Origin: Cliona cf. orientalis
Lineage: Eukaryota; Porifera; Demospongiae; Clionaida; Clionaidae
DNA: 64,000 nucleotides
Assembly (NCBI GenBank): GCA_963930775.1
Contig: OZ005694.1
Span: 5,139,054-5,203,053 of the forward strand
Reading direction: 5' to 3'
A program made the translations under genes and the position numbers. Below are positions 5,259-50,220 of the stretch, piece after piece (the first letter of the stretch is position 1; every line of letters starts with the position of its first letter). The notes under the pieces were generated by a model. That model did no database searches, had not been told where the DNA came from, and was given only the letters and a program-made list of their open reading frames with translations.

Positions 5259-6287
5259 AGGCGCTAGTATACAAAAGCAGATTCACTAGCTAGCTACATT
5301 GCACTTGAGGGACAGTATATACAGCTACAGCTGTTATTGGCACTTGTAATAATTAATCATCATTCTCCCACAGCATGCAGCAATCAAATGTGGTCCATCT
5401 GCATGGCCTTACATGTTAGTCTCGAACCCAGACCCCTCCCTTTTCCGCTGCAGAAAAGGGAGGGGTCTGAATTCGAAACTACCTTACATGTATACTCATG
5501 AGTCTAGTGACATTTGAGAGCTTTTCTAGATGCATAATTTGACGATGCCAGTAATTCTAGGGGGTAAAAGTATTTGAGTTGTTCATCCATGAGGGTGTAG
5601 CTATATATGACTATTAAATGGAATAGCTATCCCATTGGAACCTAGCTGGCTGAAGGATCCGAGGAAGGCCTATATTGACAGACACAGTAAGATTATTTTG
5701 GTGTGATTAATGCATGGATTAATAGCGGATCGGGGGGATGATCTGATCAATAATTATGAAGCATGCAATACAGTGGAGCACAAAGGTGCAAGTGTCAGTA
5801 CAAAGTTACATGAAACACTGTTACAGTAGACTATAATAATATTATTATTATAGTCTGTATATATAGTACGTCTCTTTGATCCCCTCCCATCATCCTGCGC
5901 AGCACTGCATGGACTCACCATGGGTTTGAGACTATTATACTAATAAGTAGGTATATAAAATTAATGTATCAAAGCATGTGCATTAATTATTATATATATA
6001 GTACACATGGCATTGCAATTGTGCTACTTAGCTACTGCTTATAATTATGATTCATATACTTGTAGCAAACATATTATGCTACAGCAAGTGTACATGTATT
6101 ACCTTACTGTAGTACGGGCACGTGTATGGCATTTTTATTATTAATTTTATTGGAACCAATACTGCATGGTCGATCGCGATACGTACGTACAATCATCATT
6201 ACTATAGGTATAATATTATATTAATAATACACAATTTAAATAAACAGTATTATTATTGATACAAAAACTAGAGCAAAATTAATAATT
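5259..6287. other. intergenic DNA between gene A upstream region and gene B 3' end
   Basis: AT-rich, without convincing coding sequence. It contains two small foldbacks: 5413-5480, with CAGACCCCTCCCTTTT paired to AAAAGGGAGGGGTCTG, and 5829-5857, agactataataat/attattatagtct. The rest shows nothing I recognise. Confidence 0.5.
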
Positions 6288-6356
6288 AAGTACTTCCCTA
6301 ATAATGATTTTAATAATAAAATTTTTATTATTAAAATCATTATTAGGGAAGTACTT
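6288..6356. repeat. perfect 34-bp inverted repeat spanning the kinase stop codon
   Basis: Arm 6288-6321 is the exact reverse complement of 6323-6356, with one base between. The last codons and the stop of the kinase exon (stop at 6343-6345) lie in the right arm. A minus-strand AATAAA (6324-6329) lies in the loop-proximal part. The mRNA 3' end could fold into a near-continuous hairpin. Confidence 0.85.
6324..6329 (-). promoter_or_regulatory. candidate poly(A) signal of gene B
   Basis: AATAAA on the minus strand, about 14 bases after the kinase stop codon and inside the 34-bp hairpin. It is the nearest canonical signal downstream of the stop. Confidence 0.45.
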
Positions 6357-7302: not shown

Positions 7303-10300
7303 CTATATTCGATTATTAAAGTATTATAATAATATTAATTTAAGTTCTATAGCTAATATAATATTATTATACCTTCGCCACTTGATTTGAAAATTTCAAT
7401 GCTTCACGGTTAACCCACTACAAAGTTAAATAGCAATAATAATAATTGTTATACAAGCAATACCAATTGTCATTTATATTCCATAGGGGCCCAGCACTCC
7501 ACATTCCCCACTTGCTCAATTACCTGATCCCCATACCCTATAGCTAGCTGGCACGCAAACTATTATCATTATCCTCATGCGTGCATGAGCCAGAGTGCAT
7601 ATATAGTGGATCTCCTCACTTATTGTTATATATCACCAATAAAGTGAGCATAGATTATGCTGATATGCCCACTAATAGTTAGCCAAGCACGTGCTGACCA
7701 CACAGTACCCTTGTACCCACGAAGTTAAGCTCATAGCTTACACTCTATATAACATATTGCCAGGAATGGGGCCATATGGCTTAGTAACAGCACTATATTA
7801 AAAAACAATTGTCATTCGTAATCCACAGGGGCCCAGCAAATACGCAGCACTCCAGATGCTCAACTACCCAATCCCCATACCCTAGCTGGCATGCAAAGCA
7901 CTACCATTGTCCTCACGCGTGAGCCAGAGCGCACAGCATGATCTCTTCGCTTATTGTTCTGTCATCACCAAAGCGAGCATAGATTATGGGGATATAGCTT
8001 GACTACGACATGCACTTCCACCGACAAGCAGCTGTACAGTCATGTACCACATTAAATACTTTTAAGCATTCATTGTTAAGTAATGTCTGACTTGTGTCTG
8101 CATACTATCATTATACTTCATTCATTAACTACACGTAATTATTTAATCTTACATAACTATATCACCTATGTTTAGTTACTATAATTCTGGGTACATTACA
8201 AGTTAGCATTGTTGCTATTTATGTAGCCATGCATTTATGCAGAATTATTATATACAAAAAAAAACACTGCAGATGCTTCAGGTAGCGGGATCGAACTATG
8301 GGGCATACTGACTCGAAGCACACAACTGGCTGCAATGCCATGCATTGGCAAGGATTGAGGGATCACGTACCAATCCACACAAAAGAACGATCAACATTAT
8401 CTAAGCATTTTTTAAGCAATATTATAATTCAAAAACAATCCTTAGATTTTAAGATTATGTTGCATGCCAATTATATATTAAGTAGGGCCAGTATTATACA
8501 GTGCAAGTGCGTAGTCCTGTGATATCAAAAAATTTAATGATCACGTTCTTTCCTGGAGCAGGTCACAACTCTTTAGGCAATCATGTAACGTAGTTACGGT
8601 GGCCCTGGAGGTCACGCGTCACGCCAGTGGCTATCACGTATCACTCCAGTATCCTCTCCTCCTACCGTCGTCACGTCACCGCCGTCCGTAACGAATTCGT
8701 CCGTAACGCTGATGTCCGTACCGTTCAGTCTCCGTACCGTCGCCATTCCAGTACACATGCTAATAATACGACCATGTACCAGTCCTAGCCAGGGGTGTGG
8801 TTATCGACGCTTACCGCCACACCCCCATGGCTCAGTAGGGTACGATACACACGTAGCCTGAAGAAGCAGAGTGTAGCCTCGTCCCCGTTCTTGAGTATAT
8901 TGTGTGTTGTTGCTCTTTCAATCATTTACAGCATAGATGTAAATGGCTCATAATACAGTCAAGATATATTATAGTACATACGTTTTTTCGCCATACTTAA
9001 TAAATGTGGCATCATAGAAGTTTCCAGGGTGACCTGTTCTTGGGACATAGGGTCAAAAACGTAATAAGATGACGGAGTGTGTGGATTACACGGTGGTGCG
9101 TCCGTACTATCATCTATATCATTGGTACTGATGGTACTATCAGTTAATAAATTCATTATCAACTTCTGGATCATCCCTTCAATGCTTGAGAGAACAAATT
9201 AGCCTATAACACACTGAGGTATCTTAGATTCTATCACTGACAATAAGAACACAGCAACAAATCAAGGGTAACATACTCGTTGATTTTTAATATCATAAAA
9301 TAATTTATTTGTTGACCTTAGCTACGCTCACATCGCACCCTATAATACTCGGGGGGCCGGGGGGTGTGGCGGTGAACACTTGATAGCCACACCCCTAGGA
9401 CTGGTTGTCATGTGTACTGGAATGGCGACGGTACGGACATCAGCGTTACGGACTGGAATGGCGACGGTACGGAGACTGAACGGTACGGACATCAGCATTA
9501 CGGACGGCGGTGACGTGACGACGGTAGGAGGAGAGGATACTGGAGTGATACGTGATAGCTACTGGCGTGACGCGTGACCTCCAGGGCCACCGTAGTAAGT
9601 TCAAATAAACAATTGATTCTCTAAGTGACAGTATTATACCTGTAATTGACTTTCAAGGTGGCTCACAGTTCTTTTATATTGCAGTAGAGCTGGATTAGTC
9701 TGGGGAAAACAAGTAGGATGATCAGATGGTAATAAAATTATTATTATAGCTACAATCTAAATAATGGCTTTTACCACAATTACATTATACAACATCATTA
9801 TTCATAGCCGTGGTTGCATGCTAATAATTTTAAGTGTAACCAATCGAGGGTCCATGGTTTTATTAATTTTGGACAATCAAGCAAGAAATTGGTTTGCATT
9901 TCAGGTAAATATGTTAATATTCTGATATATAGGCTCATTGCTATGACTTAAGATGTAGGAAATGATTATTGAGCTTGTCAATAGCAGTGGAAACAATTAT
10001 AATTCAGTACATTTCGGTCCGTGGACCTTCATCAGCTGAATGACAACAGTGCACTGATACAACTAGATTTATAATATTATATGCTAGTATTGTCTATCTT
10101 AAATAGTGAAACATGAATATTGGAAACTATTATGTAAGCTAGATCCAAGCCAAATGTCTATATACATTTCTATGCCCCAAAAGACCATCTTTCTCACTCC
10201 TAGGAGCAAGATTAATGAGCTTGTATAAGGGATACTGGAGTAAAGAGTTACATTCAGCCATCAAAGAGTTCCTTGGTAAGGCCAGACCAATTAAATAAGT

Positions 10301-13300: not shown

Positions 13301-16300
13301 CACTCCCACGTTTTCTGATGGCCTGGGGACGAGGTTAATTTCATGGATAGTTGTCCAAATATAATAATTATTATTTGTATGTTGAAATGCATCGTTGAGA
13401 TGAATCAAAGTTATTGGTGCTGTACATGGTTCTTGTTATGATCCAGTGGTACAGTTAATCTCAATCAGATTGTTTGAATTCACAGCCGAAAAAGTGCTTC
13501 CTATAATCACTGCCATCAATAAAGTCATTGGCAATATCTATGAGGTCAAGATCACATCAGTGTGACTCTTGTGAACATGCAGTAGCATCAAATGATTTAG
13601 ACGCTGCTGGGACATAGTAGAGCGGAGGTACGTCTTGATACGTCGTACAGAACTAAAAGACCGCTCACTCTCTGCACTTGTTGCTGGCATTACAAGCAGT
13701 AGCCTCACAAGCTTGCTCACTTGACACATCAAACCTATTTGACTAGGTGTGCAACCACGAAACAAGCTAAGAATATCAGACAAGACAACTTAAGTCTCTA
13801 GCTGTCTGAAAATTCTGAGAAAAGATCTCCAGCTGTGCTGAAAGCAAGAAGGAGTCAAAATCAGAGCCATAGAATGAGAGAACATATCTCAATTCTTCAT
13901 CATACGGCTGTGATGCTGCTGCTTTGAGGAGGAGGGCCTGCACTTTCCCATACGTCTTGTAGCCAGGCTGGTCAAAGCGATCTGAAATACACTAAGAAAT
14001 TAGATCAAGAGCTTCAAAATATATGACACGGTAGTGTTCCTCAACTGTTTCAGGAAACGTAGGTGTTGCACCATCATCAAGATGATGGGGAACTTTACGA
14101 CGGCGAGGTAGAGTGGGCTTCTCAACATCTAACTCTTCCTATGAAGTACAAATCCTTTGCCAAAAATGATCAAAGCTGGAATCATTGCGTAGTGACTTCA
14201 AGGTGGAGAGAGTTAAGTACATTACCTCTTGGCCTTCAGCTGCTGACATATCTGCCTTCTGCATTGTCCTGCTAAGATTGTCAGTATGTCGCAAGATTAA
14301 AAGACCAAGAGACACGCCAAAATAGAAATCAAATTTCTTAATTTGAGCAGCAACCCCTTGGATCCTAGCCTTCATTTCTGTTTCCCTGATAACCTCCAGC
14401 AACTCATCCCAAAGCTCCAAAAGAACATTAAAATTATCGAGGATGGTCTTCAGTGCTTCAGCCTTTACAGTCCATCTAATTGGACACAAAACACGAATTC
14501 CTGGGGAGTCACTAGCCATTTCCTCCTTAAGACGCTTAAAGATGGCATCACGATGCAGGGATTTCTTCATTAACTTGGTTATTTCATGAGTGCATGGTGT
14601 CTAGTGGATCCCGCATTAATTTACATCGCTTAATGGTACCCATCTGAGACAAACTACAACCTGTTCCACATTTGCAACATCCGTTGTTTCATCTAGCATC
14701 ACAGTGTAAAATGATGTGCTCTGAAGATTAATGGAAATCTTTCTAAGGATATGTAAAGCCATAACCTTCACCATCTCATTTTGCATTTCAGGCGAAGTAT
14801 ACTTGCTTGTCTTCTGCTTCATCCAATCAACAAGGTTACTATCATCTTCAGAGCGGAGATTCAATAATTGCATGAAATTAGAATCTGATTCATTGCTATC
14901 TCCACGAAATGCAAGACCTTGTCTGGAAAGGTAACGAGCATTAGACAGCAACTTCAGAAAGCATTTCCTGCGCTCTAAACGCTGCTTTGCAAGCTGAGAT
15001 GACAGCATCTCGCCTACATTATCTGTTGTTGCTGGAAGAGTGATGGTTTTTAGCACCGCCTCTTTGTGACACTGGCTAGCCTCATGCTTGTTGATCCATC
15101 CAGTTCAAGAATCCTGTCGAGATGAACGTCTGTTCCAGACAAGAAACAGATTGCAGGTGGTTGTTTTGGAACACTACAATGCAAGTAAAATAAAACGCGA
15201 GATCCTTGTCTTCATCATAGTGAAGCCACAACCATCTATCGAACCATTGCAGTTGGAAAGAACGCTTCGCTACCTCGATCGACGAACTTGCTGAACCAGC
15301 ACCAGCTGTTTTGCGTGCACGTGTTGCGGTGTGCATACCGATCATGCGCGCGGGCGTATGTGTATGGCCTGTGGCTTGAGTGGTCAAAGGTCAAATGGAA
15401 GGCTCAAAAAGTGGGGCGGCTCGAGCGGCCACAGTCGCCCCGCCTCCGACAGCCCTGCTTGTACTGCTTGACAGCCAGGGAAGAAACTGAAGTCCCCACT
15501 AGTCTTATTCCAATACCATGAGTAGGGGTTGACATACAAAATTGTAGGGGATGGACCTAATTTTATGTGATGATTATATATTTGATTAATGTTTTATGAA
15601 ATTAATGCATCTATAAATGTATGTTTGTCAGACTCACCTTTTGCTCATTATCTTCTTTGAGCTGTCTAAACTGTTTCTGGTAGGTTTCAAGTTGCTGCTC
15701 ATACTCGGCAATCTTAGCCCTCTTATCCTTTACTTCAGCTGTCAAACCATCCACTTGAACTCGGAATTGTTCTACTTGTTTACTATACACCAGCTTTACT
15801 TCTTGTGTTTTGGTTTGACAGTCACCTTTACAGGCTGCAATCTCCTCATTGGCTCTGGCAATTTGTTGTCGTAGTTCAGTGCTCTCAGACTGCAGCTGCT
15901 GAAGCTGTTCTCGCAGATGACTAATATTATGTTCATGATTTGCTCTTAATTTCTTCAGCTGGTTTTCTAAAGCAGATTTGTGAGCTAGTGCCTTCTCAAG
16001 ATCAGCCTCCTTTTTTCGATATTTATCATCCAATTTAGCATGAGTTTCATCTAAACTTTGCTTCTCAGTGAGAACTACTTGTAAATCACCTATTAAGTTT
16101 TGAATCTCTCCCTCTAACCTTGTGCGCTCTTCTTCAAAATCAATAGACAACTTCTGTCTATCATTTCGTTCGCACTCAAAGTCCTCTTTGTACGTTTTGG
16201 CCTGCATTTATAAAGGTGTGGCAAAGCTAGATTAAAAAATGTATAGGAATTTTAGATATTGCAAGTGTACTTCTTACTGAAGTAGCACTAACAAGGTTTC

Positions 16301-37300: not shown

Positions 37301-40300
37301 CCACCGCCCGCCCGTATCAATTTTGGGCTCAGAGGGGCTAATTGATTTGGAGGGGCCTAATAGAAAAGTCTCTAGTTCATCATATTTTATGTGGAGTACA
37401 ATGCACACACGGATGGAATATTGAATATCAACACCTAGTAAAAGTTTGTTGAAGTTCGAATAATATGATTATTATTTTTCATGCCGAATTTTTAGAAAAA
37501 ATACGGACAAATGAATGTGCTTACCCATCAGTAACTACATATGACCTTAAGGATACGATTGGATACATATATTTTACAGCCAGGAAAATTTCAATAAAGG
37601 TACATATTATTATAATACAAACTTGCATAGAGGTACATGTACATACCTGTGGTTCCATGACTGTTACAGTAATGTCACGGGGATCACTTCTTAAACAGTA
37701 TTCATTGCTTTTAGAAAGCTCTTTCTTCATCATAAGTTCCACTGTCAACCGCTCATACTGATACTGGAGATGCTTATGATCTGCTTCCAGTTTTTCGTAG
37801 CTGCTTTGGAGTGTTTCAAAGTTGGTCACAATTGCTTTCAATTCATGATCTTTCTCTTGTAGTTGCTCTTGCAGCCTTTGCACAGTTTCTGGTGTTTGCT
37901 TTCCATTAATTAATTGAAGCTGCTTTCTGAGTGACTCAATTTCTTTCTTCATCTGTAACTGCAGATCATGTTCCTTTTGCTTTTTTGAAACTACAGCTAA
38001 ATGTTGCATACGTAGATCATGCCTCATTTTCTCTACATCAGCTTTGGTCGTTTGTATGCACTTCCCCATTTCAAGATCATTTTCCTCCTTCATAATATAT
38101 GCAACAAGTTTATTACACTGTTCATCTATTACTTCAGCTCTTAGCATAAGGGCTTCTTCAGCATGTTTTGCAGCAAATTTTTCCAATTCAAAACGAAGCT
38201 TAGTCACCTCTTGTTCATCCTTCTCCTTTAGAGCAGCCTGTAATTGTCTAATTTTGTCAGCATACTTCTCGCCAGTATGCTTTAACTCCTGTTGAAGGAT
38301 GTCAGCATCTCGTTTCTTCTTTTGTTTCAATTCATGTAGCTCTTCAAGATTCTTAGCATGCTTCTCATTAGCTGCTCTCAATTCCTGACGAAGTTTATTT
38401 GCTTCCTGTTTACTCTCTTCTTCCATAGTTTCCTTTTCCTTGAGAGCAGCCTGTAGCTGGCTGAGTTCAAATGCATGTTTTCTTTCCAGATTTTCCTTCT
38501 CTCTCCGTATCTCTTCCAAGCGACGGTTCAGCTCCTCCTCATTCTCCTTCTGCTCCTTTAATTTGATCTCTAATTCTTTCAATTGCACACTCTCTCGCTG
38601 GAGAAGTTTAATTTTCTCTTCGCTCTCTTGATAAAGCACTTCTTGTTCATGAAGGCTTTGTTTTAGCATTTTAGTTTCTTCATCCTTCTTTTTTTCACTC
38701 AGCTTTCTTTCTTGATGAAGGTCTGCTATTGCCTTGGAGTGATTATCTTTGATGGCCTGCATTTCTGTAGCGTGCTTGTCACTTAGCCTATCTATCTCAT
38801 CATGCTTCCGTTGAACAGCTTCACGTAGATCTTTCACGTGTTCTTGATACTGTGTGTTCATCTCTATCTCTTTAGTTTGAAGAATTTCTATTTCAGTCTC
38901 AAGTTTCTTAATTCTATTGATCTTTATCTCTTCAAGCTCTTTAGCTAGAAGTTCTTTTTGCTCTTCTAATTCAGCAATTTTTCTGTCCTGTATGGATAAT
39001 GATATTCATAAGATGCTGATTAATATGACATTATTCATAGTCCAGTAATAAGTACGGCATGACTCAGGCACCAGAGCCTGTGGCAATGCATGTCATATGG
39101 TCTCATGAAATAAGCCTCTTAATGTTAGGAAACATTACATGTACATGCATGTATATGTATCTCAGCTGGAGGAGCATGCTACCAGAATTCGCTTCATTTG
39201 GCCTAGTTGACATCCATACAACAGCCTCATCCACCATACTCCAAACCATTATCTATTACAAAAAATGCTTAGAAGACATTCTTGAGTCTTCACTCTCTTG
39301 ATTAAGCTTTTCTTGTTCTTGAAAGCTTTGTTTCAGTTGCCTAGCATCTTCATCGTTTTCTTTTTCACTCTGCTTTCTTTCTTGATGAAGGTCTGCTATC
39401 GTCTTGGAATGATCATCTTTGATGGTCTGTATTTTAGCTCTTTAGCCAGAAGTTCTTTTTGCTTTTCTAATTCACACACACTCAGAACGACTACCGTAAC
39501 CGTTGCGCATGCATTGAGGGCTAAAAAAATCTACATGAAGTTGTATTATCTATGTATATGTACCTATTATGAGGATATTTGGGAGAGGGGGCTATGCTTA
39601 AGCAGAGTGCTATACATATGAACTTTCCATAATGTCACTAGAGAGCTCATAGATAATACCACTCATAGCTCAGATATGAAAAATAATAATATTATTGAAG
39701 CTTCCTGGCTCTGCACATGCAAATAATATGCAGCCACATCTCTTAATCTTTACTTTCAAAAAGCTTAGCGTGGGGTAGTGGATAAGGCTAACTATGTAAT
39801 GTAGATCTACATGTGCATGTAAATGTATAAGGTTTCATTTTTTGGATTCTCATCAAGGGGGGGGGGGTGCAAATGTGACAATTGTAGATTTAAAGGGGGC
39901 GAGGACTATACTAATACTTCAACGGTGGAAACAACGTACCACAATAAGAGCCTCTCAATAAACACACAAGCCTCCCTCCTACCTTTGTCACATTCTCTCT
40001 CAGACTGTCTCTCTCAAAGTACGAGCCCCTGCATAAACACACACTCCCTGTCTCTCTCACATATACTTTCACTCTCACTCCACCCCCTCCCTCTTTTTCT
40101 TTCATGAGTTCGACCGCATGTGCACAAGAACTCTGATTGTTGTTGACAAACCTTACCCACCCATATAATAATATACATGGGGTGTGACCAATTTAGTATT
40201 GACTTTTTAGTGTATCTAGGATTTATGTGCATATATTATAGTGCTCTCTCCAAGCTAATTGATAGGTGAACATAGTTGAGTGGAGCCTGAGTCCATAACA

Positions 40301-43300
40301 AAACTCATGGATTATCCCTGTTCCTACATTAAAGGAAACTCTGCACTGAAGGCTTGTTGGGCTGACATACCATAGGTATGCTAGGCAGAATATATACTAA
40401 TACTCCTGTAGATTTTTGCTAATTTTGCTATAGGTGCATATGCTAAAAAACCGACATCTATGGTATAATAATAATATTATTATTATGTCCAAAAGAAAAA
40501 GACACCATTATAAGCAAATAGCCGCAACTACAGTATACAACTAGAGCTCTCTAAAGCACAAACCCTCGGCATGTTGCATGGCATTTACTCCATAAACAGG
40601 CAACAGTAGAACATTAGGCCATGCAAACTACATTGACTTCCTAGGTTAGCATGAGCACCTGCATGCTTCTTAGCCTTTCTACTTCAACTTGTTAAATTGG
40701 AGGGGTAAGGTCTTCGAAAATTGCATTCGCTGGGCAAACCATAGATGAATTAAAGTTTTCCGTGAAGGGTTAGTGTAGTTTTAGTCACACGATCTTGTCC
40801 CTGGACTCCACCCTCATAACACTAGTGATACCATACATGCTGTATATAGCACACAGCACATGATGTTCTATTATACTAGGTCATGCAACCGCTAGCTGGG
40901 AAAAGTTAAGAAGCTTAGAATCAGCAAAATTTAATGATGCCAAAACTGGCTAACAAAGAATTTTCTGCGAAATGCACACAAATCATGCATTTGAAATTCA
41001 TGAGGAATAATATTATAACACCCCACTTTGGATTCGCAAACGAGGTATATATACAGCATCTAGCATGGTAACAGACAGACGGACACACAATGACTATCGC
41101 GATCGTAACCCTCGCGCATGCACCAAGGGTTAATGATATGTGTTAGCCAGCACCAATACATACTCTCCCCTTCGTAGATCATTGGGGTAGCCTATACACG
41201 TACAATATAATTGTCTCTTTAGTACTGGGTAATTGCAAAACATCAAGCACTACTGGATAATGAATTTATAGTGTATTACATGATTTTATGATTTTTATAG
41301 CCATAATGATACGTAAATTGTACCTATGCTTTTAGTACTGCATTGCCAAGTCAAAAATGTAGGGATACCGTATTTCTTCTAAAAATTCGGCCCTTCTAAT
41401 TATTCGGTACCTTTACTGAATGATTGAAAATAGTCTCTAAGTTTTAGCAAAGGTCGTCTCACGTATATATGCTATAAAACGGGAATAGAATGCGCACGCA
41501 GACAGAATGTTGAATATTAACCTCTAATAATTCGGCAAAGCTAAAGCAATAATTATTATTTTCATGCTAAATTTTTAGAAGAAATACGGTATTTGTATAT
41601 ATTGTACAAATATGCATATTACACATGTGTTCTTGTCAGCCTTACCTTTTGCTCTTCATTTTCATCAAGCTGTCTGACATACCCCCGGTAGAATCCCAGT
41701 TGCTGCTCATACTTTGCAATCTTGGCCCTATTATCTTCCAGTTCAGCTATCAGCAGGTTTAGTTGTTGTGTTTTGGTTTGACAGTCACCTTTACAGGCTG
41801 CAATCTCCTCATTGGCTATGGCAATTTGCTGTCGTAGTTCAGTGCTCTCAGACTGCAGCTGCTGAAGCTGCTCTCGCAGATGACTAATATTATGTTCATG
41901 ATTTGCTCTTGATTTCTGTAGCTGGTCTTCTAAATCAGATTTGTGAGCTAGTGCCTTCTCAAGATCAGCCTCCTTTTCTCGATATTTATCATCCAATTTA
42001 GCGTGAGTTTCTTCTAAGCTTTGCTTCTTAGCAAGAGCAACTTGTAAAGCATCCTTGTCCTGCTCACTCTGCTCTTGGACCCTTCTTAACTCTCCGTTTA
42101 AGAATTGAATCTGTTCTTCTAATTTCGCACACTGTCCTTTCATTGTTGTCTCTTTTATTTCAACTTTAATCTTCAAATCTTCAATTTGATCTTTCATTTG
42201 TTTTTTTAAATCTTCAACAATCCGTTGATGCTGTACGCTCAAAGCAGCTTTCTCTTCTTGATATGCACTAGCCTGTGCTTCTTTATCCTTTCGCTCATTC
42301 TCAAAGTCCTCTTTGTATGTTTCAGCCTATAGAAAAATGTAATCATCTTGATGACAGTGGAAGTAGCTGGATTAAATATGCATAGTGGTTTAAAATCAAC
42401 AACCAGTATATACCTGATATAGGACATGGCTATCCATTGTCTGTTTACATGTATTTTACTTCAAAGCTATATGCCCAGCGATAATAGTTTGCTGGCAATA
42501 GGTTTCACATGCACAGATATTAATATGCACCAGAGTAGCCCTGTACCCAGGCCCTTCAAGAGGGAGAGAAAGAGCCTGGTACACATTGCACGCACATACA
42601 CTGGGGGACCACAGAATAAACTGGGTAATAGAATACTATCATAATATTATTATTATACTCGCCGTTATCGTCCATAGAACAAGCACCTCATGCAAAATCC
42701 CCATACAATCACTACGGTAATGCGACCCGCCACTATGTAGACTCCAGTGCATGCGCATGCATGCAATGTGTACCAGGCCCTAGGCCTGGGTACAAGGCTA
42801 GCAGCAGAGTTGCACCTTTCCAATTGTCTAAAGGGATGTATGGTAGTGAATGGCTCTTTTCACCCTCCATATTCCACACATAACATGCAGCACCTTGGTT
42901 GAGAATAATAATTATTAGCAGTAAGTATGTTTGATGTCACAATCATGGGATAATGTGGCTAATATGCATGAGTTACTCACAGTATAGAATTATAACCTCA
43001 TATACTCAAAGAAAATCTAAACAGTATCATGTCCCTAGCTGTATGTCAAATGCGTTAGTACAGTGCACATGCAGCAGCACGAACTTTGAACCTATTACTT
43101 TGTAGATCACACCACTCAATACAGGTCAGCAGCAGCTGCTCGGACTCAACACTGCAATGGCGACGTTCTCGCTCTGCTCCAATGTCGAATCTGCCACCAC
43201 ACTATTACAAAGAACAGACCTCGTCTCTTGCTTCGCTTGAGGCTCGGTGGCACATGCATGGCCTGCATGCTGAGCAGGCCTCTCGAAACGCGCGGTGCTT

Positions 43301-46300
43301 GGCATTCGAGAATGCATCTCTATGGCCACCCTCGTTTGTGCACACAGCACTACAATTCTGACCAATCGTGGGCCTTCTGAACTTGTAGCAGAGTGCACTT
43401 TTGTGCCCTCCACATTAGAACATGGACTATATGAGGAAACTTGTCGTTCTGAAAAATATCTTTCATTGTATATAGTATATGTATAACAATACCTGGATTT
43501 TTTGCTGCTCCAGCTCCTCCGCTATTTCATCTAACATTATTTGCAGTGAATCTTTTTCATTCTTTAGATCACTTGCTTTGATAGCGTTCACAGTTATAGC
43601 TTCACTTATAGCAACAGTCTGTTCTTTCATTGCATCAATTTGACCCCGATACTTATGTAGCCGTGATAATTGCTGTGTTACTGTACCATATATAGCTTTT
43701 AGGCAGTTGTTTTCCTCTTCTAGCTCCTTTAGTTTTTGCAATAGATGCTGATTCTTTTGTTTGACTTCTTCACATGTATGCCCCTGTGCTGTATATCTCG
43801 CAGTTAGTTCAGCTTCATCAACCTAGATGTAAGGTGATACAAGAAGTAGAATAGTAGTAAGTATACATGTACAATATTATAATGCTATGGCAGAAAACCA
43901 CCCGAGACCCGAGGGTGGAAACAAAGCTTATTCACCTCCTTCTTCTTTAGAGCAGCCTGTAATTCTCTAATTTCATCAGAATATTTCTTGGTGGTGTCCT
44001 TCAATTCCTGCAGCTCCTCAACATCGTTAGCATGCCTCTCATTAGCTGCTTTCAATTCCCGACGAAGTTTATCTGCTTTCTGTTTATTTTCTTCTTCCAC
44101 AGTTTCTTTTTCTTTGAGAGCAGCCTGCAGCTGACTGACTTCAAGTAAATGTTTTTTTTCCAGCTCTTCCTTCTCTTTCCTTATCTCTTCTAAGTGATGG
44201 TTGGGTGGGAGTGCACACAGCTCCTCCTCCTTCTGTTCCGTCAATTCAATCCCTAATTCCTTGCTCAACTGTACAATGTCTCGCTGGAGAAGTTCAATTT
44301 TCTTTTCACTCTCTTGATCAAGCACTTCCTGTTCATGGAAACTTTGTTTCAGTTTTCTAACTTCTTCGCCCTTTTTTTCACTCTGTTTCCTCATTTTGTC
44401 AAACTGTAATATTGCGTCGGTTTGATCATCTTTCACAGCCTGCGTTTGCATATAGCATACATGGTTGTTACTTAGCTTATTTATATTTTGCCCAGATAAT
44501 TTCCTGCTATACAATTATACAACTATTTGTCATTTTTGAAACTTCCACCTCCATAATATTATAGATATAGTATACACTCTTCCTTTTTTTTGGCGTATTA
44601 GCCATCATCCCACAACTATTATGTGTGGAATATTCACAGCTTATTTGTATCAAGCAGAAAGTCCTATCTTCTTCTTATGTAGCCATTAATACCAAGCCTT
44701 TTCAATAAATAACATCATGTACATGAACAAAGTATAGTTTTAACGATCTTTACCCTATGTATAATATGGTTGTGATCATTATAACATATAATTCAATTGT
44801 AGGGTAACTCTCTGGGATAACACTACCATGATTGAGCCCACTGGTACATTGTACATGACCAGAGTAAAGTGTTGGTGGAAGCCCCTGAGCAATGAGCTGG
44901 TTTGCTGGACCTCCACCCTGCCGCTTAGCCATCAGATGGGGGACGAGAAGAGTTCTCCAGTCCCCACAATCCCGGTACGGCAGGAAGCGCCTTCTAACGC
45001 TGAAGGCTTGGGGTCCATAATACCAGGGGGGAGTGGCGTCACTACAAACGGCTAATCACGCCGAGCGAGTCGGCAGAGAGGACAAGCAACAATACACAAA
45101 CAGACAGACAACATGTACAACAGAATACACATACATGTAATATATTTGTGAAGGGAGGGTAGGACGACATAAAATGCAGCTCTGCAGCGCTTCTTGCCAC
45201 AGCAACACTGAGCTCTTACTCAACCTAATGCACTTGCCAGCTACGCTTGCAGCAGCTTAAGTACCCTGGGTCCTTTCCAACCCTGGCACCAGTTTCAACC
45301 TGCACAAGGGGTGCCTATGCTTGTACTATTATTACCCCGCGTGCATGCGTAAGGGGTAAGGTAATCGGTCGTGTCGTTGTCGTTGTCGTTGTCGTGAGCA
45401 CAAAAGTCGCCATATCTCGAGATGTAGGCATCTAAGCAACTCGTAAGCACAACGAATCAATTGAATTCGGCGAAAAACTGGCTTTAGTGTGCGTCAAATC
45501 GATGGATACGGTCTATGGGCGTCACAAATAGTGCCTTTTGTTGGCTAACGTAGCCACACCTATCGACAGTGCCTACTCAATGCATAATGCATGCTCATTG
45601 TGTTTTCTGCTCATGCGCACAACTAGTCTAAGTAGCCAAGAATAATATTATGACTGGTAAAGATCGTCGAAATTAATGAAATCTATAGTCTATCCGCATC
45701 CGCTGATGCAGATGAAATCTGCAGCCTATGGAACCAAATCATAATGTATATTGGCCAAGATCCTACTTGTAACAAATACTGTGATCTGATTGGTTAAAGT
45801 GAAGTATCTATCCTTCATAGAAAATCATGTAAGCTCTATAGAAATCATATAAAATTTCTTGCCTATGATTAGGGTTGTTGCTAGGCAGCAGTTTATATGT
45901 CAAGCTTTTGGGCATTGTTGCTAGGATCTAAATATGTTAGACACTGTTTAGTCAGTTTCTACATGATTTAGCCCTTGAAGATCTCAGGGCTCAGTAGAAC
46001 TCTCGCTTCGCTCGGGATTCTACACAGAGCCCTTCGGTCTTCTAAATCATGTAGAAACCTCCTAAACAGTGTCTAACTATTATATATAACACAGATATTG
46101 AAAGTATCAATTCATATCCCCTAGTAGTCTAGATCTGGTGCAGAGAGAGTGTTTTTTTGTCACCGAGACCTCCGGTAGCTATATACAATTAAGCAGCATT
46201 TCCACTAATTTCTGAAGTTCACAAAATTACCGTAAATCTGGAAATTTTCGTTGTAAAAATATTTTTCGTAGTCGATGGCGGCTACAAAAATTAATCTTAC

Positions 46301-49300: not shown

Positions 49301-49918
49301 CACTCCAGATATTATTATAGTGCCCACCTGCACACAAAGATATTTTTTTACCCCGAGTGCTTTTGATGATGCTTCCTTTGCTCCATCTTCTAGTGATGCA
49401 TCCTGAATATTACTAACGTGACTGTGACTACCTTGACTGCTCTCTGAGTGGGTGTGGTGTCTCTGAGGAGGAGGTGGGGCTTCACTAAGAGACGGTGGAT
49501 GTTGCAAGCTGTGGCTTGTCCTCTTGTCACTGCATTTTGAGCGTGATGCACTCCTAGTTTGATCTTGGTACTCTTCTTGTTTATTTCCTTTCCGTCCTTT
49601 GCCCTTTATATCTTTCTTATCCTTATCCTGCTTCTTTATTCCTTGATCCACTTTCTGCAGGCTCCAATTCATTTTATGTCCTCCTGAAGCTTGCTTTGAT
49701 TCAGCCCCAGCCTCTTCACTATTGTCATATTGTGACTCTTCATTATTCTCTGCAGTGAGTGATTGGCCACAAGCACCTTCGCTTTCAATAGTCGGGGGTC
49801 CAATATCTGGAGATTTGGGGGTAGTGGGGATTTCCCCTTGTTCTTGCCGCTTCTGTTTGGCTTCACCTTTCTTGCTTTTGCCACTCCTTGAGACTTTTCT
49901 TCCCGATGACACCGGCAT
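6343..49918 (-). CDS. gene B: proposed triple-UBAN coiled-coil protein kinase (whole gene)
   Basis: Exons in order: 49918-49352; about 44490-43936; 43822-43496; 42326-41646; 38987-37647; 34090-33943; 33543-33473; 27513-27205; 26298-25597; 23539-22793; 22629-22360; 16201-15638; 9699-9640; 7417-7373; 7302-6343. Every junction is phase 0 except the 33943/33543 junction (phase 1 on both sides); the acceptor of the second exon is uncertain. The product would be about 2,400 aa: a charged N-terminus, three [type I - type II - UBAN] coiled-coil cassettes and a C-terminal kinase. UBAN is the ubiquitin-chain-binding coiled coil of NEMO, optineurin and ABIN, so the protein may couple ubiquitin sensing to phosphorylation in one chain. 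No other promoter-like first exon, stop codon or poly(A) signal was found between the cassettes. Alternative: two or three separate genes produced by tandem duplication, with only the last carrying the kinase. Exon calls are strong; one-transcript linkage is inferred. Confidence 0.5.
7373..7417 (-). CDS. gene B penultimate exon (15 aa)
   Basis: A 45-base exon, WVNREALKFSNQVAK, between TTTGTAG|TGG and AAG|GTATAA. Only this frame is open, and it is phase 0 on both sides. It joins the kinase exon in frame, giving ...NQVAK-ENDLSPF. It is too short to stand alone; support comes from the matching splice sites and phase. Confidence 0.65.
7440..8560. other. intron DNA with a tandem duplicated segment
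   Basis: About 7462-7690 and 7800-8000 are diverged copies of one segment. Shared stretches include ggggcccagca and a 'catacccta...gctggca(c/t)gcaaa' block, and both copies contain a caccaa(t)aaagtgagc-like and gcatagattatg stretch. No coding sequence was recognised. Confidence 0.45.
8597..8835. repeat. left arm of a long inverted repeat
   Basis: About 240 bp of GC-rich sequence (ggtggccctggaggtcacgc onward) matching the reverse complement of 9360-9592 at roughly 90% by eye. It contains internal repeats of 'ccgtaacgctgatgtccgtaccgt'-like units, written here in part. It may be one arm of a composite or foldback element lying in gene B's intron. Confidence 0.75.
8979..9190 (-). other. exon-like open segment between the inverted arms
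   Basis: Open on the minus strand, with a pyrimidine-rich acceptor TTTGTTCTCTCAAG and an AAAAAAC|GTATGT donor. It reads ...MIQKLIMNLLTDSTISTND... and ...YYVFDPMSQEQVTLE. Its phases (2 in, 1 out) do not match the flanking gene B exons, so it is not a simple cassette exon of that gene. It could be cargo of the element formed by the inverted arms, or a decayed exon. Not recognised. Confidence 0.35.
9360..9592. repeat. right arm of the long inverted repeat
   Basis: Reverse-complement partner of 8597-8835. It carries one extra internal unit (ctggaatggcgacggtacgg occurs twice), so the arms differ by a short tandem duplication. Confidence 0.75.
9640..9699 (-). CDS. gene B exon: 20-aa coiled-coil linker
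   Basis: A 60-base exon, TNPALLQYKRTVSHLESQLQ, bounded by GTTTTCCCCAG and CAG|GTATAA. It is phase 0 on both sides. It joins the end of UBAN exon 3 (NEQK) to the WVNRE exon in frame. Short exon; confidence comes from the strong acceptor, codon phase and coiled-coil character. Confidence 0.65.
10003..10040 (-). ncRNA. hammerhead-ribozyme-like motif
   Basis: The minus strand reads ATTCAG-CTGATGA, then AGGTCCACGGACC, then GAAA-TGTA-CTGAAT. CTGATGA and GAAA are the invariant hammerhead cores. GGTC/GACC forms stem II with a CACG loop, and ATTCAG/CTGAAT forms stem I. Stem III would be minimal, as in hammerheads of Penelope-like elements, where such short-stem-III forms are thought to act as dimers. 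Predicted cleavage is after GUA. No flanking reverse transcriptase was recognised. Confidence 0.45.
10560..10875 (+). pseudogene. Ty3/gypsy-type reverse transcriptase remnant
   Basis: Plus-strand fragments resemble the reverse-transcriptase core of Ty3/gypsy retrotransposons. They are VRFSVNYHQLN, FIAFDLASAFA and, after in-frame stops and a frameshift, SAFVIHSGLYEFTVIPFALA. The YxDD region is not preserved. No LTRs or other pol domains were seen. A dead fragment in gene B's intron. Confidence 0.65.
10914..11049. mobile_element. foldback MITE, GTTAGACACTGTTTAG family, copy 1
   Basis: A near-palindromic 136-bp element. The ends gttagacactgtttag and ctaaacagtgtctaac are exact reverse complements, followed by tttctacgtgatttagaagacc and its complement. 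Other copies are at 30600-30711 (decayed) and 45936-46077. Confidence 0.8.
11544..12181. mobile_element. TIR element, TTGGGGCGAGCCTGAGC ends, copy 1
   Basis: Inverted terminal sequence TTGGGGCGAGCCTGAGC at both ends, about 640 bp apart. An inverted second copy lies at 28169-28737 and shares the interior (for example gacgtgctgct and gacaatagaggcag). Non-autonomous; superfamily not determined. Confidence 0.65.
12182..13535. other. intron DNA with a foldback
   Basis: No coding sequence recognised. A foldback at 13285-13336 pairs tagcctcgtccccaggcc with ggcctggggacgaggtta; related hairpins occur at 21919-21953. Confidence 0.5.
13538..15390 (-). pseudogene. broken hAT transposase (TTF-zinc-finger/ZMYM-like type)
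   Basis: Minus-strand pieces in the correct order. 15387-15082 resembles the TTF-type zinc-finger start (FQLQWFDRWLWLHYDED). 15056-14616 has the DUF4371-like core (TVMLDETTDVANVEQ). 14570-14139 is the middle region (LCPIRWTVKAEAL). 13783-13538 is the hAT C-terminal dimerisation region (ATSAESERSFSSVRRIKTYL). Frameshifts and stops separate the pieces and a zinc-finger Cys appears changed (AFYFTC), so it is inactive. It sits inside gene B's intron on the same strand. Family roles are established knowledge; ends and target duplication were not resolved. Confidence 0.85.
15638..16201 (-). CDS. gene B UBAN exon 3
   Basis: 188 codons, phase 0 on both sides, between AAATGCAG|GCC and AAAAG|GTGAGT. 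It opens with the UBAN signature KTYKEDFECERNDRQ, matching NEMO's YKADFxxER. The Asp-Phe pair, which includes the Asp required for ubiquitin binding in human NEMO, is kept. About 150 residues of regular coiled coil follow, nearly identical in their middle (RANHEHNISHLREQLQQLQS) to UBAN exons 1 and 2. The next in-frame exon is the 20-aa linker leading to the kinase. Ubiquitin binding is inferred. Confidence 0.8.
18115..18540. repeat. minisatellite, unit of about 62 bp
   Basis: Six or so diverged tandem copies of a unit containing 'gacagtccgtgttcagct', 'agagcccaccat' and 'gtttttgctg'. No open frame runs through all units. Confidence 0.8.
20729..20753 (+). other. weak candidate first exon on the plus strand
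   Basis: ATGGTTCGAGGTGGAAG... runs into a strong CAG|GTAAGT donor, giving MVRGGRYS. There is no convincing second exon downstream, so it may be chance. Confidence 0.15.
21919..21953. repeat. foldback 'tagcctcgtccccag'
   Basis: tagcctcgtccccag, a 5-base loop, then its reverse complement ctggggacgaggcta. Same family as 13285-13336, and half-copies occur near 2896 and 8874. Confidence 0.7.
22360..22629 (-). CDS. gene B type II coiled-coil exon 3
   Basis: 90 codons, phase 0 both sides, ATATAG|ATTAATGAA to CCAG|GTAGGC. Starts INEVQLTVRYAVQGHTC; the rest is coiled coil (LEREHNRLEAEYGTVTQQ). Homologous to type II exons at 43496-43822 and 27205-27513. It ends exactly where a UBAN exon should begin, as in the other cassettes. 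Confidence 0.8.
22793..23539 (-). CDS. gene B type I coiled-coil exon 3 (short form)
   Basis: 249 codons, phase 0 both sides, CATATACAG|GACAGAAAA to CAAGAG|GTGACT. It starts DRKIAELEEQNELLAKELEE and is continuous coiled coil. It is very similar to the first part of the long exon 37647-38987. If the GTGACT donor were skipped, the frame would run only to HPRISGGYLP and stop. Using the donor joins it in frame to type II exon 3. Confidence 0.8.
23720..23935 (-). pseudogene. decayed type I exon
   Basis: Minus-strand sequence clearly related to the type I exon (the QEQEMRS..SEEKIKLL region), but with deletions and a broken frame. A matching relic occurs at 39290-39470 in the paralogous intron, so decay or insertion predates that duplication. 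Confidence 0.65.
24521..24891. mobile_element. CAGGGTTTCATC element carrying a nested MITE
   Basis: The ends cagggtttcatc and gatgaaaccctg are inverted. The paralogous intron near 40080 lacks the whole insert: it reads straight through ccacccc-ctccctctttt. Nested inside is the CCGTA element at 24607-24805. Confidence 0.7.
24607..24805. mobile_element. CCGTA MITE, GGCGG family, copy 1
   Basis: Ends CCGTATAGCCGGAAA and TTTCCGGCTATACGG, flanked by TA on both sides. The interior repeats the motif aaatttggcggtt in both orientations. Other copies: 26493-26669, 48722-48938, degenerate at about 16790-16945. Confidence 0.85.
25597..26298 (-). CDS. gene B UBAN exon 2
   Basis: 234 codons, phase 0 both sides, TTTTCTGTAG|GCT to GAGCAG|GTCAGA. 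Opens AKTYKEDFDNERKDKE, the UBAN signature, with the Asp-Phe pair kept and a Lys in place of the second Arg of NEMO. Long coiled coil follows. Compared with UBAN exon 1 it ends about 15 codons earlier, using a GTCAGA donor inside what is coding there. It is nearly identical to 41646-42326, showing recent segmental duplication. Confidence 0.8.
26493..26669. mobile_element. CCGTA MITE, GGCGG family, copy 2 (reverse)
   Basis: Ends (t)CGTATAACCGGAAAA and TTTCCAGCTACACGG with flanking TA. The paralogous site at about 42650 lacks it. Inverted relative to copy 1. Confidence 0.75.
27205..27513 (-). CDS. gene B type II coiled-coil exon 2
   Basis: 103 codons, phase 0, TTTCATGTAG|ATTGAT to CAG|GTATTG. 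Reads IDKNKLTVRCEQLQQENQ and continues as coiled coil with LHKYRGQIDAMKEQTAAISE, almost identical to type II exon 1. It lacks the 'QGHTC' segment of the other two copies. Preceded in frame by the exon ending SAMTTLE (33473). Confidence 0.8.
28169..28737. mobile_element. TIR element, TTGGGGCGAGCCTGAGC ends, copy 2
   Basis: Inverted copy of 11544-12181. The flanking 'aggccctgcatgacactagt' is also shared with copy 1, so the true element end may lie further out. Confidence 0.65.
28770..29304. mobile_element. TIR element CCCTCGCGAAAGAGGG, TA target duplication
   Basis: Ends CCCTCGCGAAAGAGGGCCC and GGGCCCTCTTTCGCGAGGG, both flanked by TA. A second copy of its right part is split by another element at 48106-49216; a fragment lies near 35315-35365. 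Confidence 0.75.
30364..30589. mobile_element. Harbinger-like MITE, GGCCACTCC ends, TTA target duplication
   Basis: GGCCACTCCATATTAA at the left and ...TTTGGAGTGGCC at the right, flanked by TTA on both sides. The TWA target and GG-rich ends fit PIF/Harbinger non-autonomous elements. Related copy at 37143-37357. Confidence 0.7.
30600..30711. mobile_element. foldback MITE, GTTAGACACTG family, copy 2 (decayed)
   Basis: gttagacac...ttctacgtga...gaagggctcagt and an imperfect inverse ending gtgtccaat. Shorter and diverged relative to 10914-11049. Confidence 0.6.
32036..32310 (+). pseudogene. pogo-like transposase N-terminal fragment
   Basis: Plus-strand psq-type helix-turn-helix remnant: WDDAVMESALEEASSGSM and YGVPRSTLGD. 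After a frameshift comes EEEDLVQFLTGSADIGYPKS, typical of pogo/Tigger/CENP-B-type transposases. Broken by a stop and a frameshift. Confidence 0.65.
32582..32782 (-). pseudogene. pogo-like transposase core fragment, opposite strand
   Basis: Minus-strand SLAYKRAIATNRDVIDKYF and IFNYDESSLR resemble the region around the first catalytic Asp (N-x-DE) of DDE_1/pogo transposases. It faces the HTH fragment at 32036, so at least one piece has been inverted or they are two insertions. Confidence 0.6.
33473..34090 (-). CDS. gene B exons 6 and 7 (33943-34090; 33473-33543)
   Basis: Two small exons. The first (148 bases) starts after TTGCATTGCAG and reads EDKSTLSNMGRMKLLQRAA...TREAIP, leaving phase 1 at CAT|GTGAGA. 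The second (71 bases) starts after TTTCTTTCCAG, completes the codon and reads FQALQAKCEGQIKDLYSAM...E, ending in phase 0 at GAG|GTATAA. Together they add 73 codons linking the long type I exon (ends EPQ) to type II exon 2 (starts IDKN). They are unique to this cassette; the other two cassettes lack equivalents. Function unknown. Confidence 0.7.
33690..33862. mobile_element. small element with repeated AAGCACCCA/CCCAGGTAAGC motif
   Basis: Related to 54363-54541. Shared motifs are caaggggtca, atcccaggtaag, ggccaaatt and ttatgtttaag, with ends containing gggacac(t)acagt in opposite orientation. Non-autonomous; class uncertain. Confidence 0.5.
35729..36364. mobile_element. CCGTA element, GCAGGAAATT family
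   Basis: Ends CCGTATAGCAGGAAATT and AATTTCCTGCAATACGG, flanked by TA, about 636 bp. cgaaaat-type motifs recur near both ends. A solo terminal fragment of the same family adjoins the first type I exon near 44494-44513. Confidence 0.75.
36541..36763. mobile_element. CCGTA MITE, TTCGG family, copy 1
   Basis: Ends CCGTATTTCTTCTAAAAATT and AATTTTTAGAAGAAATACGG, flanked by TA. The motif (a)attcgg recurs at least five times inside. Copies: 37091-37506 and 41368-41589. Confidence 0.9.
37091..37506. mobile_element. CCGTA MITE, TTCGG family, copy 3, with nested insertion
   Basis: The left end is eroded (CCTCTTCTAAAATTTCGG) and the right end is gaatttttagaaaaaatacgg. It is interrupted by the Harbinger-like element at 37143-37357. 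Confidence 0.75.
37143..37357. mobile_element. Harbinger-like MITE, GGCCACTCC ends, TAA target duplication
   Basis: GGCCACTCCAAATCAATT at the left and AATTGATTTGGAGGGGCC at the right, flanked by TAA. Inserted in the TTCGG MITE 37091-37506, so it is younger than that element. Confidence 0.75.
37647..38987 (-). CDS. gene B type I coiled-coil exon 2 (long form)
   Basis: 447 codons, phase 0 both sides, CCATACAG|GACAGAAAA to CCACAG|GTATGT. It starts DRKIAELEEQKELLAKELEE and ends VTVMEPQ. It is continuous coiled coil with no transmembrane segment. The first half aligns to the short type I exon 22793-23539. At the point where the short form splices (GAG|GTGACT), the same sequence is present here but is read through, so an alternatively spliced short form is possible. 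Gene A's exon at 21-1640 is the other long form. Confidence 0.85.
39290..39475 (-). pseudogene. decayed type I exon
   Basis: A type I-like minus-strand sequence: LEKQKELLAKEL, then a deletion and a frameshift, then a region matching HQERKQSEKENDED. Counterpart of 23720-23935 in the duplicated intron. Not used. Confidence 0.7.
39480..41367. other. intron DNA paralogous to 23940-25560
   Basis: Aligns by eye with the intron between UBAN exon 2 and type I exon 3, including ggggggggg runs, the 'tttcattt' block, and the ccaagggttaatgatatgtgttagcc region. Part of a segmental duplication of at least 5 kb. No genes recognised. Confidence 0.7.
41368..41589. mobile_element. CCGTA MITE, TTCGG family, copy 2
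   Basis: Ends identical to copy 1 and flanked by TA. The paralogous locus at about 25563 reads gtagggaTAtttgta with no insert, which is a clean empty site proving a TA target duplication. Confidence 0.92.
41646..42326 (-). CDS. gene B UBAN exon 1
   Basis: 227 codons, phase 0 both sides, TTTCTATAG|GCT to AAAAG|GTAAGG. Opens AETYKEDFENERKDKE, the UBAN signature of NEMO/optineurin/ABIN. Coiled coil then continues to ENEEQK. It is nearly identical over most of its length to UBAN exon 2. The downstream neighbour is the long type I exon 37647-38987, which starts in the same phase. Ubiquitin-chain binding is inferred from the retained Tyr-Lys-x-Asp-Phe-x-x-Glu-Arg pattern. Confidence 0.8.
43100..43470. 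repeat. dispersed repeat, copy in intron
   Basis: Similar to 60730-61115 and, for its right part, 16370-16520. Shared blocks are cgttctcgctctgctc, gcttcgctTgaggctcggtgg, aggcctctcgaaacgcgcgg, ttctgaccaatc and ggactatat(a/g)a(g)gaaa. Possibly SINE- or MITE-derived; I could not place Pol III boxes. Confidence 0.6.
43496..43822 (-). CDS. gene B type II coiled-coil exon 1
   Basis: 109 codons, phase 0, ACATCTAG|GTTGATGAA to ATCCAG|GTATTG. Reads VDEAELTARYTAQGHTC, then coiled coil including LHKYRGQIDAMKEQTVAISE. Lies between type I exon 1 and UBAN exon 1, as in the other cassettes. Confidence 0.8.
43936..44490 (-). CDS. gene B type I coiled-coil exon 1 (5'-truncated short form)
   Basis: About 185 codons homologous to the type I exons, beginning around LSNNHVCYMQTQAVKDDQTD, which aligns to LSDKHATEMQAIKDNHSK. 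The N-terminal part present in other copies (DRKIAELEEQ...) is missing. Upstream lies a fragment with the end sequence of the GCAGGAAATT element, so the acceptor is uncertain; AATAAG|CTAAGT would be phase 0. The exon ends at GAG|GTGAAT in phase 0; if unspliced it stops at HPRVSGGFLP. It shares the NHHLEEI insertion with gene A's type I exon. Confidence 0.65.
44515..45935. other. intron DNA, unrecognised
   Basis: Part of the 4.9-kb first intron of gene B. 44820-45060 has a GC-richer, open plus-strand stretch without recognised homology. At 45334 is a copy of the CCTTACGCATGC..GGGGT palindromic repeat, followed by a short gtcgtt microsatellite (45379-45397). Confidence 0.4.
45936..46077. mobile_element. 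foldback MITE, GTTAGACACTGTTTAG family, copy 3
   Basis: Ends gttagacactgtttag and ctaaacagtgtctaac are exact complements. Interior gggctc...gagccc arms match 10914-11049 in inverted orientation. Confidence 0.8.
46230..46421. mobile_element. CCGTA MITE, CGAAAATTTACGG family
   Basis: Ends CCGTAAATCTGGAAATTTTCG and CGAAAATTTACGG (the left end carries a short insertion relative to the right), flanked by TA. The subterminal cgaaaatt motif repeats inside on both strands. Confidence 0.8.
46422..48105. other. intron DNA without recognised features
   Basis: AT-rich with many gcatgc/tacatgta words. No homology to the cassette exons and no convincing splice-bounded open frame was seen. Confidence 0.4.
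48153..49131. mobile_element. CCGTA element, GAATAGTAGCC family
   Basis: Ends CCGTATTTATTTGAATAG and CTAGTATTCGAATAAATACGG (the right end is longer), flanked by TA. Internal repeats of gaatagtagcc and its complement occur near both ends. Related decayed sequence near 29140-29165. Confidence 0.8.
48722..48938. mobile_element. CCGTA MITE, GGCGG family, copy 3
   Basis: Ends CCGTATAGCCAGAAAT and TTTTCCAGCTATACGG, flanked by TA. It lies inside 48153-49131. Confidence 0.88.
49352..49918 (-). CDS. gene B exon 1: charged N-terminal exon
   Basis: ATG-initiated, 189 codons, phase 0 at a CTCGGG|GTAAAA donor (a second GT lies after CTTTGTGTGCAG). The protein begins MPVSSGRKVSRSGKSKKGEA and parallels gene A exon 1: EQGEIP, ESEGACGQSL, KGRKGNKQE and HHTHSESSQGSHSH. 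Low complexity, hydrophilic, with no signal peptide. The lysine block of gene A is partly lost. Start chosen by alignment of the two paralogs. The upstream 370 bp is also related to gene A's upstream region. Confidence 0.8.
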
Positions 49919-50220
49919 TGCTCCTATAAACAGTAGAGCGTCCGTTTTAACAGAGGTACTAGGCTGGCAACTGTCCTTTACTCGATATCATCATACCGGC
50001 ACGATGCCGGCATCCACTGGCAGAATTCACTTTAGCGCCGGGATCGAGCAGTGCTGAGTTTACAATTCAGTGAGTCTTGATCCGTGACGAGGTACTATGG
50101 TTATTAGAAAATTGCTATGATCGCAGTGACAAGTACCGCAAGTTCTCCCTAGCTCTTCGGCTGGCGCCTACGTTTTCCTTGATGAATATACGGACGCTCG
50201 ACCGGACGGGTGGGCTGAAA

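Follow-up and report, generated by a model that had tools for sequence, protein, structure and literature searches.

A putative UBAN-kinase fusion gene among NEMO/optineurin-like genes of the sponge Cliona cf. orientalis

The window, as we call the whole 64,000-nucleotide stretch of DNA analysed here (G000:C6:5139054-5203053, from a genome of 217 Mb), carries on its minus strand a gene, termed gene A, that appears from its sequence to join a UBAN coiled coil to a protein kinase. In better-known animals, ubiquitin reading and kinase are split between separate proteins. The explanation that we consider best, with a probability of roughly 0.75, is that a kinase replaced a zinc finger in the common ancestor of gene A and a paralog, locus C, and that a UBAN cassette was triplicated in gene A. 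Both loci would derive from a cluster of NEMO/optineurin-like genes encoding a coiled coil, a UBAN split between two exons (b and c) and a C-terminal C2HC-type zinc finger. Before A and C diverged, the zinc-finger exon would have given way to a TK/TKL-like kinase with two short leader exons; the a-b-c cassette would later have been triplicated within gene A by way of phase-0 introns, and exon c would be spliced to linker 1, linker 2 and the kinase in one mRNA.

Exons and domains of gene A

As modelled from the N-terminal exon to the kinase exon, gene A forms a single open frame of 2359 amino acids (Table 1). Between its two ends lie three a-b-c cassettes, each made up of a long coil, a CC2 half and a UBAN core, and two linker exons. 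An earlier note on this DNA had placed UBAN exons starting at 42326, 26298 and 16201 on the same strand as a kinase exon at 7302-6343; these were confirmed, and the two small exons that it claimed were also found on the minus strand. The note had further described the splice phases as compatible. The frame is open as modelled; however, every modelled intron of gene A is in phase 0, so compatible phases constitute weak evidence and were set aside as an argument for one gene. Furthermore, the canonical donors of three exons are lost. Exon c2 lacks the AAG|GTRAGK donor that c1, c3, gene B and copy D retain, and its frame continues to a stop codon at 25551-25549 (..VRQFINKSLQISLHF, then stop) unless a CAG|GTCAGA site is used. 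Exons a1 and a3 lack the type of donor present in a2 and in the a exon of gene B, and the in-frame ATGs located directly 5' of their acceptors, at 44451 (a1) and 23593 (a3), are possible alternative starts. Scored with a donor matrix, the c3 donor reaches 8.3; of the GT sites of that strand, 0.06% have a score of 7 or more and 2.35% a score of 3 or more. The fallback GTCAGA has 2.98, more than 11 of the 19 undisputed donors. Two stretches near 34.1 and 33.5 kb that resemble exons of B or C were left out, as they misfit the phase-0 model.

Table 1. Gene A, its exons and the related loci. Exon positions of gene A are those of the window.
Feature	Position	Strand	Remarks
Gene A	window 49918-6343	minus	N-terminal coding exon to kinase exon
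Exon N	49352..49918	-	start codon; Ser/Lys-rich N-terminus MPVSSGRKVSRSGKSKK...; weak donor GGG|GTAAAA, score -0.16
Coil exon a1, cassette 1	43936..44439	-	a2-type donor lost; fallback GAG|GTGAAT
Exon b1, cassette 1	43493..43822	-	CC2 half of UBAN coiled coil
Exon c1, cassette 1	41646..42326	-	UBAN core, Y/D/F/R kept, Lys at R319 position; donor AAG|GTAAGG
Coil exon a2, cassette 2	37647..38987	-	donor CAG|GTATGT, same as gene B
Exon b2, cassette 2	27205..27513	-	CC2 half
Exon c2, cassette 2	25597..26298	-	UBAN core, Lys at R319; end set at weak CAG|GTCAGA
Coil exon a3, cassette 3	22793..23539	-	a2-type donor lost; fallback GAG|GTGACT
Exon b3, cassette 3	22360..22629	-	CC2 half, shortened
Exon c3, cassette 3	15638..16201	-	UBAN core, Gln at E320; near-consensus donor AAG|GTGAGT
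Linker exon l1	9640..9699	-	20 aa TNPALLQYKRTVSHLESQLQ; coil-like by eye; no Met
Linker exon l2	7373..7417	-	15 aa WVNREALKFSNQVAK; no Met
Kinase exon	6343..7302	-	TK/TKL-like; catalytic motifs present; stop codon
Gene B, N exon	window 3839-3258	-	neighbour of A
Gene B, UBAN core exon	C6:5125974-5125021
Gene B, zinc finger	C6:5119679-5119539
Locus C	C6 ~5294.5-5325.3 kb	plus	paralog of A
Copy D	C1:6263782-6263075	minus	lone UBAN exon
Gene E	window 62168-59405		UBAN and zinc finger
F	C6:5208556		UBAN match
G	C6:5215027		UBAN match
H	C6:5404171		UBAN match
K6	C6:5113320-5117069	+	kinase-first locus
K5	C5:5863553-5867491	+	kinase-first locus
K16	C16:2506951-2501573	-	kinase-first locus

Each UBAN domain is interrupted by an intron that separates the CC2 half from the core, which weakens the signal of the CC2-LZ family (PF16516, curated gathering cut-off 35.3 bits) when exons are scanned singly. 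In such unspliced scans c3 matched CC2-LZ (E 9.3e-4) less well than several other coiled-coil families, and the 25 families listed for c1 or c2 did not include it. After joining of exons b and c, CC2-LZ became the best Pfam family for all four pieces searched, a set made up of the three of gene A and that of locus C. The locus C piece scored 36.4 bits, above the cut-off, and those of gene A fell below it, at 20.1 bits (E 9e-4) for cassette 1, 23.1 bits (E 1e-4) for cassette 2 and 28.9 bits (E 1.6e-6) for cassette 3. A profile of nine aligned UBAN rows, in which the core Y/D/F/E/R/D is invariant, gave 24 PDB matches at E <= 1. Twenty of these are ABIN1, ABIN2, NEMO or optineurin, with ABIN2 (TNIP2) the best at 1.8e-7; the other four are "Sc-apCC" chains, which we read as designed coils. 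These domain searches support the UBAN identity of the gene A exons as predicted from their sequence.

Among the residues of human NEMO that contact ubiquitin, F312, R316, R319 and E320 are named in PMC6462001. All four are kept in 7 of 13 copies (B, C, G, H, K5, K6 and K16). The UBANs of gene A each deviate at one of them (Table 1); elsewhere F has His at 319, and D and E have Lys and Ala, respectively, at 320.

Searching the whole genome for CC2-LZ at E <= 1 returned 19 matches; matches below the cut-off also occurred in 2 of 14 control genomes, and the weakest of the 19 may be due to chance. The genome searches were run exon by exon, and the resulting counts are lower bounds. At C6:5435783-5435917 (+), CC2-LZ reaches its highest score in this genome (42.5 bits, above cut-off). 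Copy D is a lone intact UBAN exon with acceptor and donor, around which blastn found no a, b, linker or kinase match in 9.5 kb upstream and 11.5 kb downstream. The UBAN exon of gene B has an in-frame internal duplication of the coil and encodes 318 amino acids, compared with 188-245 in the other copies.

The kinase exon of gene A matches the Pfam families Pkinase (1.2e-34) and PK_Tyr_Ser-Thr (2.4e-32) and ends 31 amino acids past the Pfam match. The G-loop, Lys, alphaC Glu, HRD, DFG and PPE motifs were all found; in agreement with the earlier note's description of a catalytically intact kinase, the domain is apparently complete and active. The best PDB match was TNNI3K, a TKL kinase, followed by the tyrosine kinases BMX, EGFR and JAK2. 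IKK was absent among the 58 PDB matches at E <= 1e-15, and a genome-wide search for IKBKB_SDD (PF18397) at E <= 1, the sensitivity of which is limited by exon splitting, gave zero matches. A fusion of NEMO with IKK, which the note had implied, was rejected because the kinase is TK/TKL-like and not IKK-like. The genome holds a very large family of related kinases (1055 first-look candidates, 125 of them scored), and among those scored the only close copy is that of locus C, with 86% identity, the next best reaching at most 45%. Between A and C the dN/dS of the kinase is 0.24 (p 1.9e-12, simple Nei-Gojobori method, as for all such ratios here), and the kinase exon is thus under purifying selection. 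A 38-bp inverted repeat (97%, with a 1-nt centre) at window 6284-6360 spans the kinase stop codon; by eye, it is absent 3' of the locus C kinase.

The zinc-finger sisters and locus C

Gene A lies in a cluster of UBAN genes at C6 ~5.10-5.44 Mb, mostly on the minus strand. In five sisters (B, E, F, G and H) the UBAN core is followed on its own strand, after ~1.5-6.3 kb, by a C2HC-type zinc-finger exon, and none of the nine zinc-finger matches in the genome (E <= 1) falls inside A or C. A zinc finger also lies 13 kb beyond a sixth UBAN match, at C6:5242536, and two zinc-finger matches, at 5252538 and 5359228, are without gene assignment. A profile of the sister zinc fingers was nearest to TAX1BP1 and NDP52, weakly (best E 0.026). 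The NEMO N-terminal family was not listed for the two ORFs scanned, 48992-49987 and 37521-39005. An exon for a protein phosphatase 2C (window 59100-58003, minus strand, E 2.2e-45) sits between gene E and gene A, all on the same strand. On another contig, the Rel homology domain is matched above cut-off by three exons at C19:5539045-5543793 (-), and an NF-kappaB-type factor is therefore present in the genome.

Locus C is located ~180 kb from gene A on the same contig and the opposite strand. Its exons a, b, c, l1, l2 and kinase are conserved in the order of gene A and all lie on a single strand, with one UBAN cassette in the stretch read and an N-exon-like match upstream (80 nt, 82.5%). From exon c to linker 2, linker 1 is the only strong match of A with C (E 2e-17, in a comparison of 6.0 kb of A with 11.1 kb of C); the next best (0.023) is an AT-rich repeat, and a reversed control gave 1.2 at best. 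Conservation at linker 1 ends at the splice sites. The stretch that separates UBAN from zinc finger showed no comparable match in B or E, and we rejected the idea that the linkers are exons common to UBAN genes. A transposase remnant, DUF4371 (E 2.1e-8), hAT-like, lies between UBAN exon 3 and linker 1 at window 15104-14616 (-), on the strand of gene A.

Synonymous divergence between A and C is similar for the kinase (dS 0.32), linker 1 (0.28), exons c (0.33-0.54) and exons b (0.42-0.46), as expected of one co-duplicated unit, with the exception of linker 2 (1.0 over 15 codons). Against locus C, dN/dS was 0.38-0.44 for the c exons and 0.32-0.49 for the b exons, a weaker constraint than that on the kinase. 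The history may not be that of two simple sisters, since the coil exon a of locus C is nearer to that of gene B (89% over 473 nt), and B has no kinase. Moreover, the UBAN exon of locus C is missing the canonical donor and reads to a stop (..LDKHKMQ, then stop), so locus C would need the CAG|GTCAGA site (2.98) or would have to skip exon c.

Cassette number and the proposed join to the kinase

In gene A, the stretch from c1 through the intron to a2 matches that from c2 through the intron to a3 in five aligned pieces (dS ~0.11-0.14), and a tree of c exons groups the three cassettes of gene A (98/98). Together these results suggest that the array grew inside gene A and that the intercassette intervals are probably intron-derived. 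The same tree splits {B,D} from {A,C} at 92/94, below the star of the tool. When the N exon of gene B was used as a query, two copies were recovered from the genome at E <= 0.001, B itself and that of gene A; a separate gene for each cassette is disfavoured, as the N exon was found only in A and B.

That all three UBANs are present in a single protein is, on the exon model, a tentative proposal with somewhat less than an even chance. A narrower fusion, which we judge to fall just short of an even chance, would place UBAN3 and the kinase in one transcript, with the N exon optional, and cassettes 1 and 2 in other isoforms or in a separate upstream transcript ending at the c2 stop. Each protein would then have one UBAN, as that of locus C would, and the single cassette in the stretch of locus C that was read is consistent with this. 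The lost donors of a1, a3 and c2, the read-through of c2 to its stop and the in-frame ATG upstream of a3 point in the same direction; in addition, phase-0 introns allow cassettes to be skipped in frame, and a one-cassette version of the gene A model encodes 1070 amino acids. However, no second N exon was found between the cassettes at E <= 0.001, in a search that also missed the diverged N-like match of locus C, the matching intervals look intronic by origin, and GTCAGA outscores the donors of b1, b2 and the b exon of locus C (0.38 each). The threefold valency proposed in the earlier note is uncertain, given the lost c2 donor and the one deviating contact residue in each UBAN of gene A, although avidity may offset these imperfect contacts.

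The join to the kinase itself appears firmer. The kinase exon had been said to lack a start codon before the domain, and no in-frame Met occurs in it before residue 62, which already lies inside the domain; linkers 1 and 2 contain none. The kinase would therefore take its start from the UBAN exon or exons upstream of it, or else from a non-conserved exon that escaped notice. The latter would suit a pair of adjacent genes, namely a UBAN gene that lacks its zinc finger and a kinase gene with a short start exon between 15638 and 9699, the order being kept in locus C only through joint duplication of both. Same-strand adjacent genes are ordinary, a non-conserved 5' exon would escape the comparison of A with C, and the UBAN exon of locus C ends in a stop. 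Nevertheless, we consider such a pair unlikely: linker 1 is the only strong conserved block in the interval, the strong c3 donor would be left without a partner, and in three of the four related kinases read (L036, L037 and L038) an in-frame Met lies ~20-30 codons before the glycine loop. In the fourth, L035, the open frame contains no Met before the domain, so A and C are not alone in lacking a nearby Met. Least probable of all is that the upstream cassettes are decaying duplicates and the kinase part alone is functional: the donors lost in a1, a3 and c2 and the high dN/dS among the b exons of gene A (0.64-0.93, not distinguishable from 1, p 0.13-0.51) would fit, but all nine cassette exons are free of stops and frameshifts as modelled, with c2 cut at GTCAGA, and synonymous changes exceed non-synonymous ones for c against C (rough p 2.7e-5 to 3.1e-4) and for a against B (4e-10 to 1.3e-4), pairs that do not tell which lineage is constrained.

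Fusion of a UBAN with the kinase, as in the zinc-finger replacement that we prefer, is thus well supported, both by the paralog that shares the linker exons and by the zinc fingers of five sister genes, and UBAN3 and the kinase are probably part of one protein. Of the single UBAN-kinase gene proposed earlier, the fusion is backed by locus C and the linkers, and three UBANs in one chain are less sure. No UBAN-kinase fusion was found described in the literature, as judged by titles and the starts of abstracts, with subscription journals thinly covered.

Kinase-first loci and known systems

Genome-wide comparison of kinase, CC2-LZ and zinc-finger matches brought up three further loci, K6, K5 and K16, in which the kinase comes first. 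Their kinase exons have their own ATG and end at a phase-0 donor (K6 AAG|GTATGT, K5 GAG|GTAATA, K16 AAG|GTGAGT), with a stop only inside the intron. On the same strand follow an exon that is coil-like by eye and then a UBAN, ~2.4-2.9 kb beyond the kinase exon. The CC2-LZ scores of K6 (31.5 bits) and K5 (28.5 bits) are below cut-off, and that of K16, which additionally carries a zinc finger, is weak (16.4 bits, E 0.013). By chance, 0.02-0.23 cases of a kinase at most 5 kb upstream of a UBAN match on the same strand would be expected, depending on the counts used, a rough and after-the-fact estimate. K5 and K6 are 65% identical, and this close relationship makes the three loci nearer to two independent cases than to three. 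We regard them as candidate kinase-first UBAN fusions, less certain than A and C and based on partial gene models. In a kinase tree, A and C form their own branch, and K5, K6 and K16 fall within another group (82/84). Derivation of the A/C kinase from those of K5, K6 and K16 is unsupported by this tree, the separating fork of which reaches only 82/84; as the two sets are not sisters, at least two origins would be implied. The UBAN-kinase combination thus seems recurrent, in both orders. That this animal repeatedly wired kinases to UBANs, by an N-terminal kinase in K5, K6 and K16 and by zinc-finger replacement in A and C, with A tripled, is a speculative extension to which we give rather less than even odds.

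Known UBAN proteins act as adaptors through which kinases are recruited or steered. In gene A the UBAN coiled coil would dimerise and bind linear or K63-linked ubiquitin chains; chain binding would cluster the dimers, bring the tethered kinase domains together and lead to trans-autophosphorylation. The outcome would be a ubiquitin-gated kinase in one protein instead of a NEMO-plus-kinase relay, and, if true, the fusion would represent a minimal switch from ubiquitin chain to phosphorylation within one polypeptide, as well as a compact system for testing kinase activation by chain binding. Recurrence in an early-branching animal would suggest that domain fusion gave rise more than once to the ubiquitin-to-kinase signalling step.

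Gene A shares with NEMO (IKK-gamma) and optineurin a coiled coil with a UBAN (CC2-LZ) and its Y/D/F/R core, and the likeness extends to the cluster, where a Cys2-His-Cys zinc finger follows the UBAN in five sister genes. Human NEMO, as described in PMC10694592, has no kinase; its domains are a kinase-binding one, a UBAN and a zinc finger. In contrast to NEMO and optineurin, A and C have a kinase domain at the place of the zinc finger, and A has three UBAN cassettes. The UBAN core is closest in sequence to ABIN1-3 (TNIP1-3), of which TNIP2 is the best PDB match; the ABINs are not known to have a kinase domain. By analogy, the TK/TKL-like kinase in a presumably ubiquitin-linked setting may be likened to TKL kinases of the RIPK/IRAK type, with the difference that a built-in UBAN would sense ubiquitin here, in front of a kinase that is not placed in a named vertebrate family.
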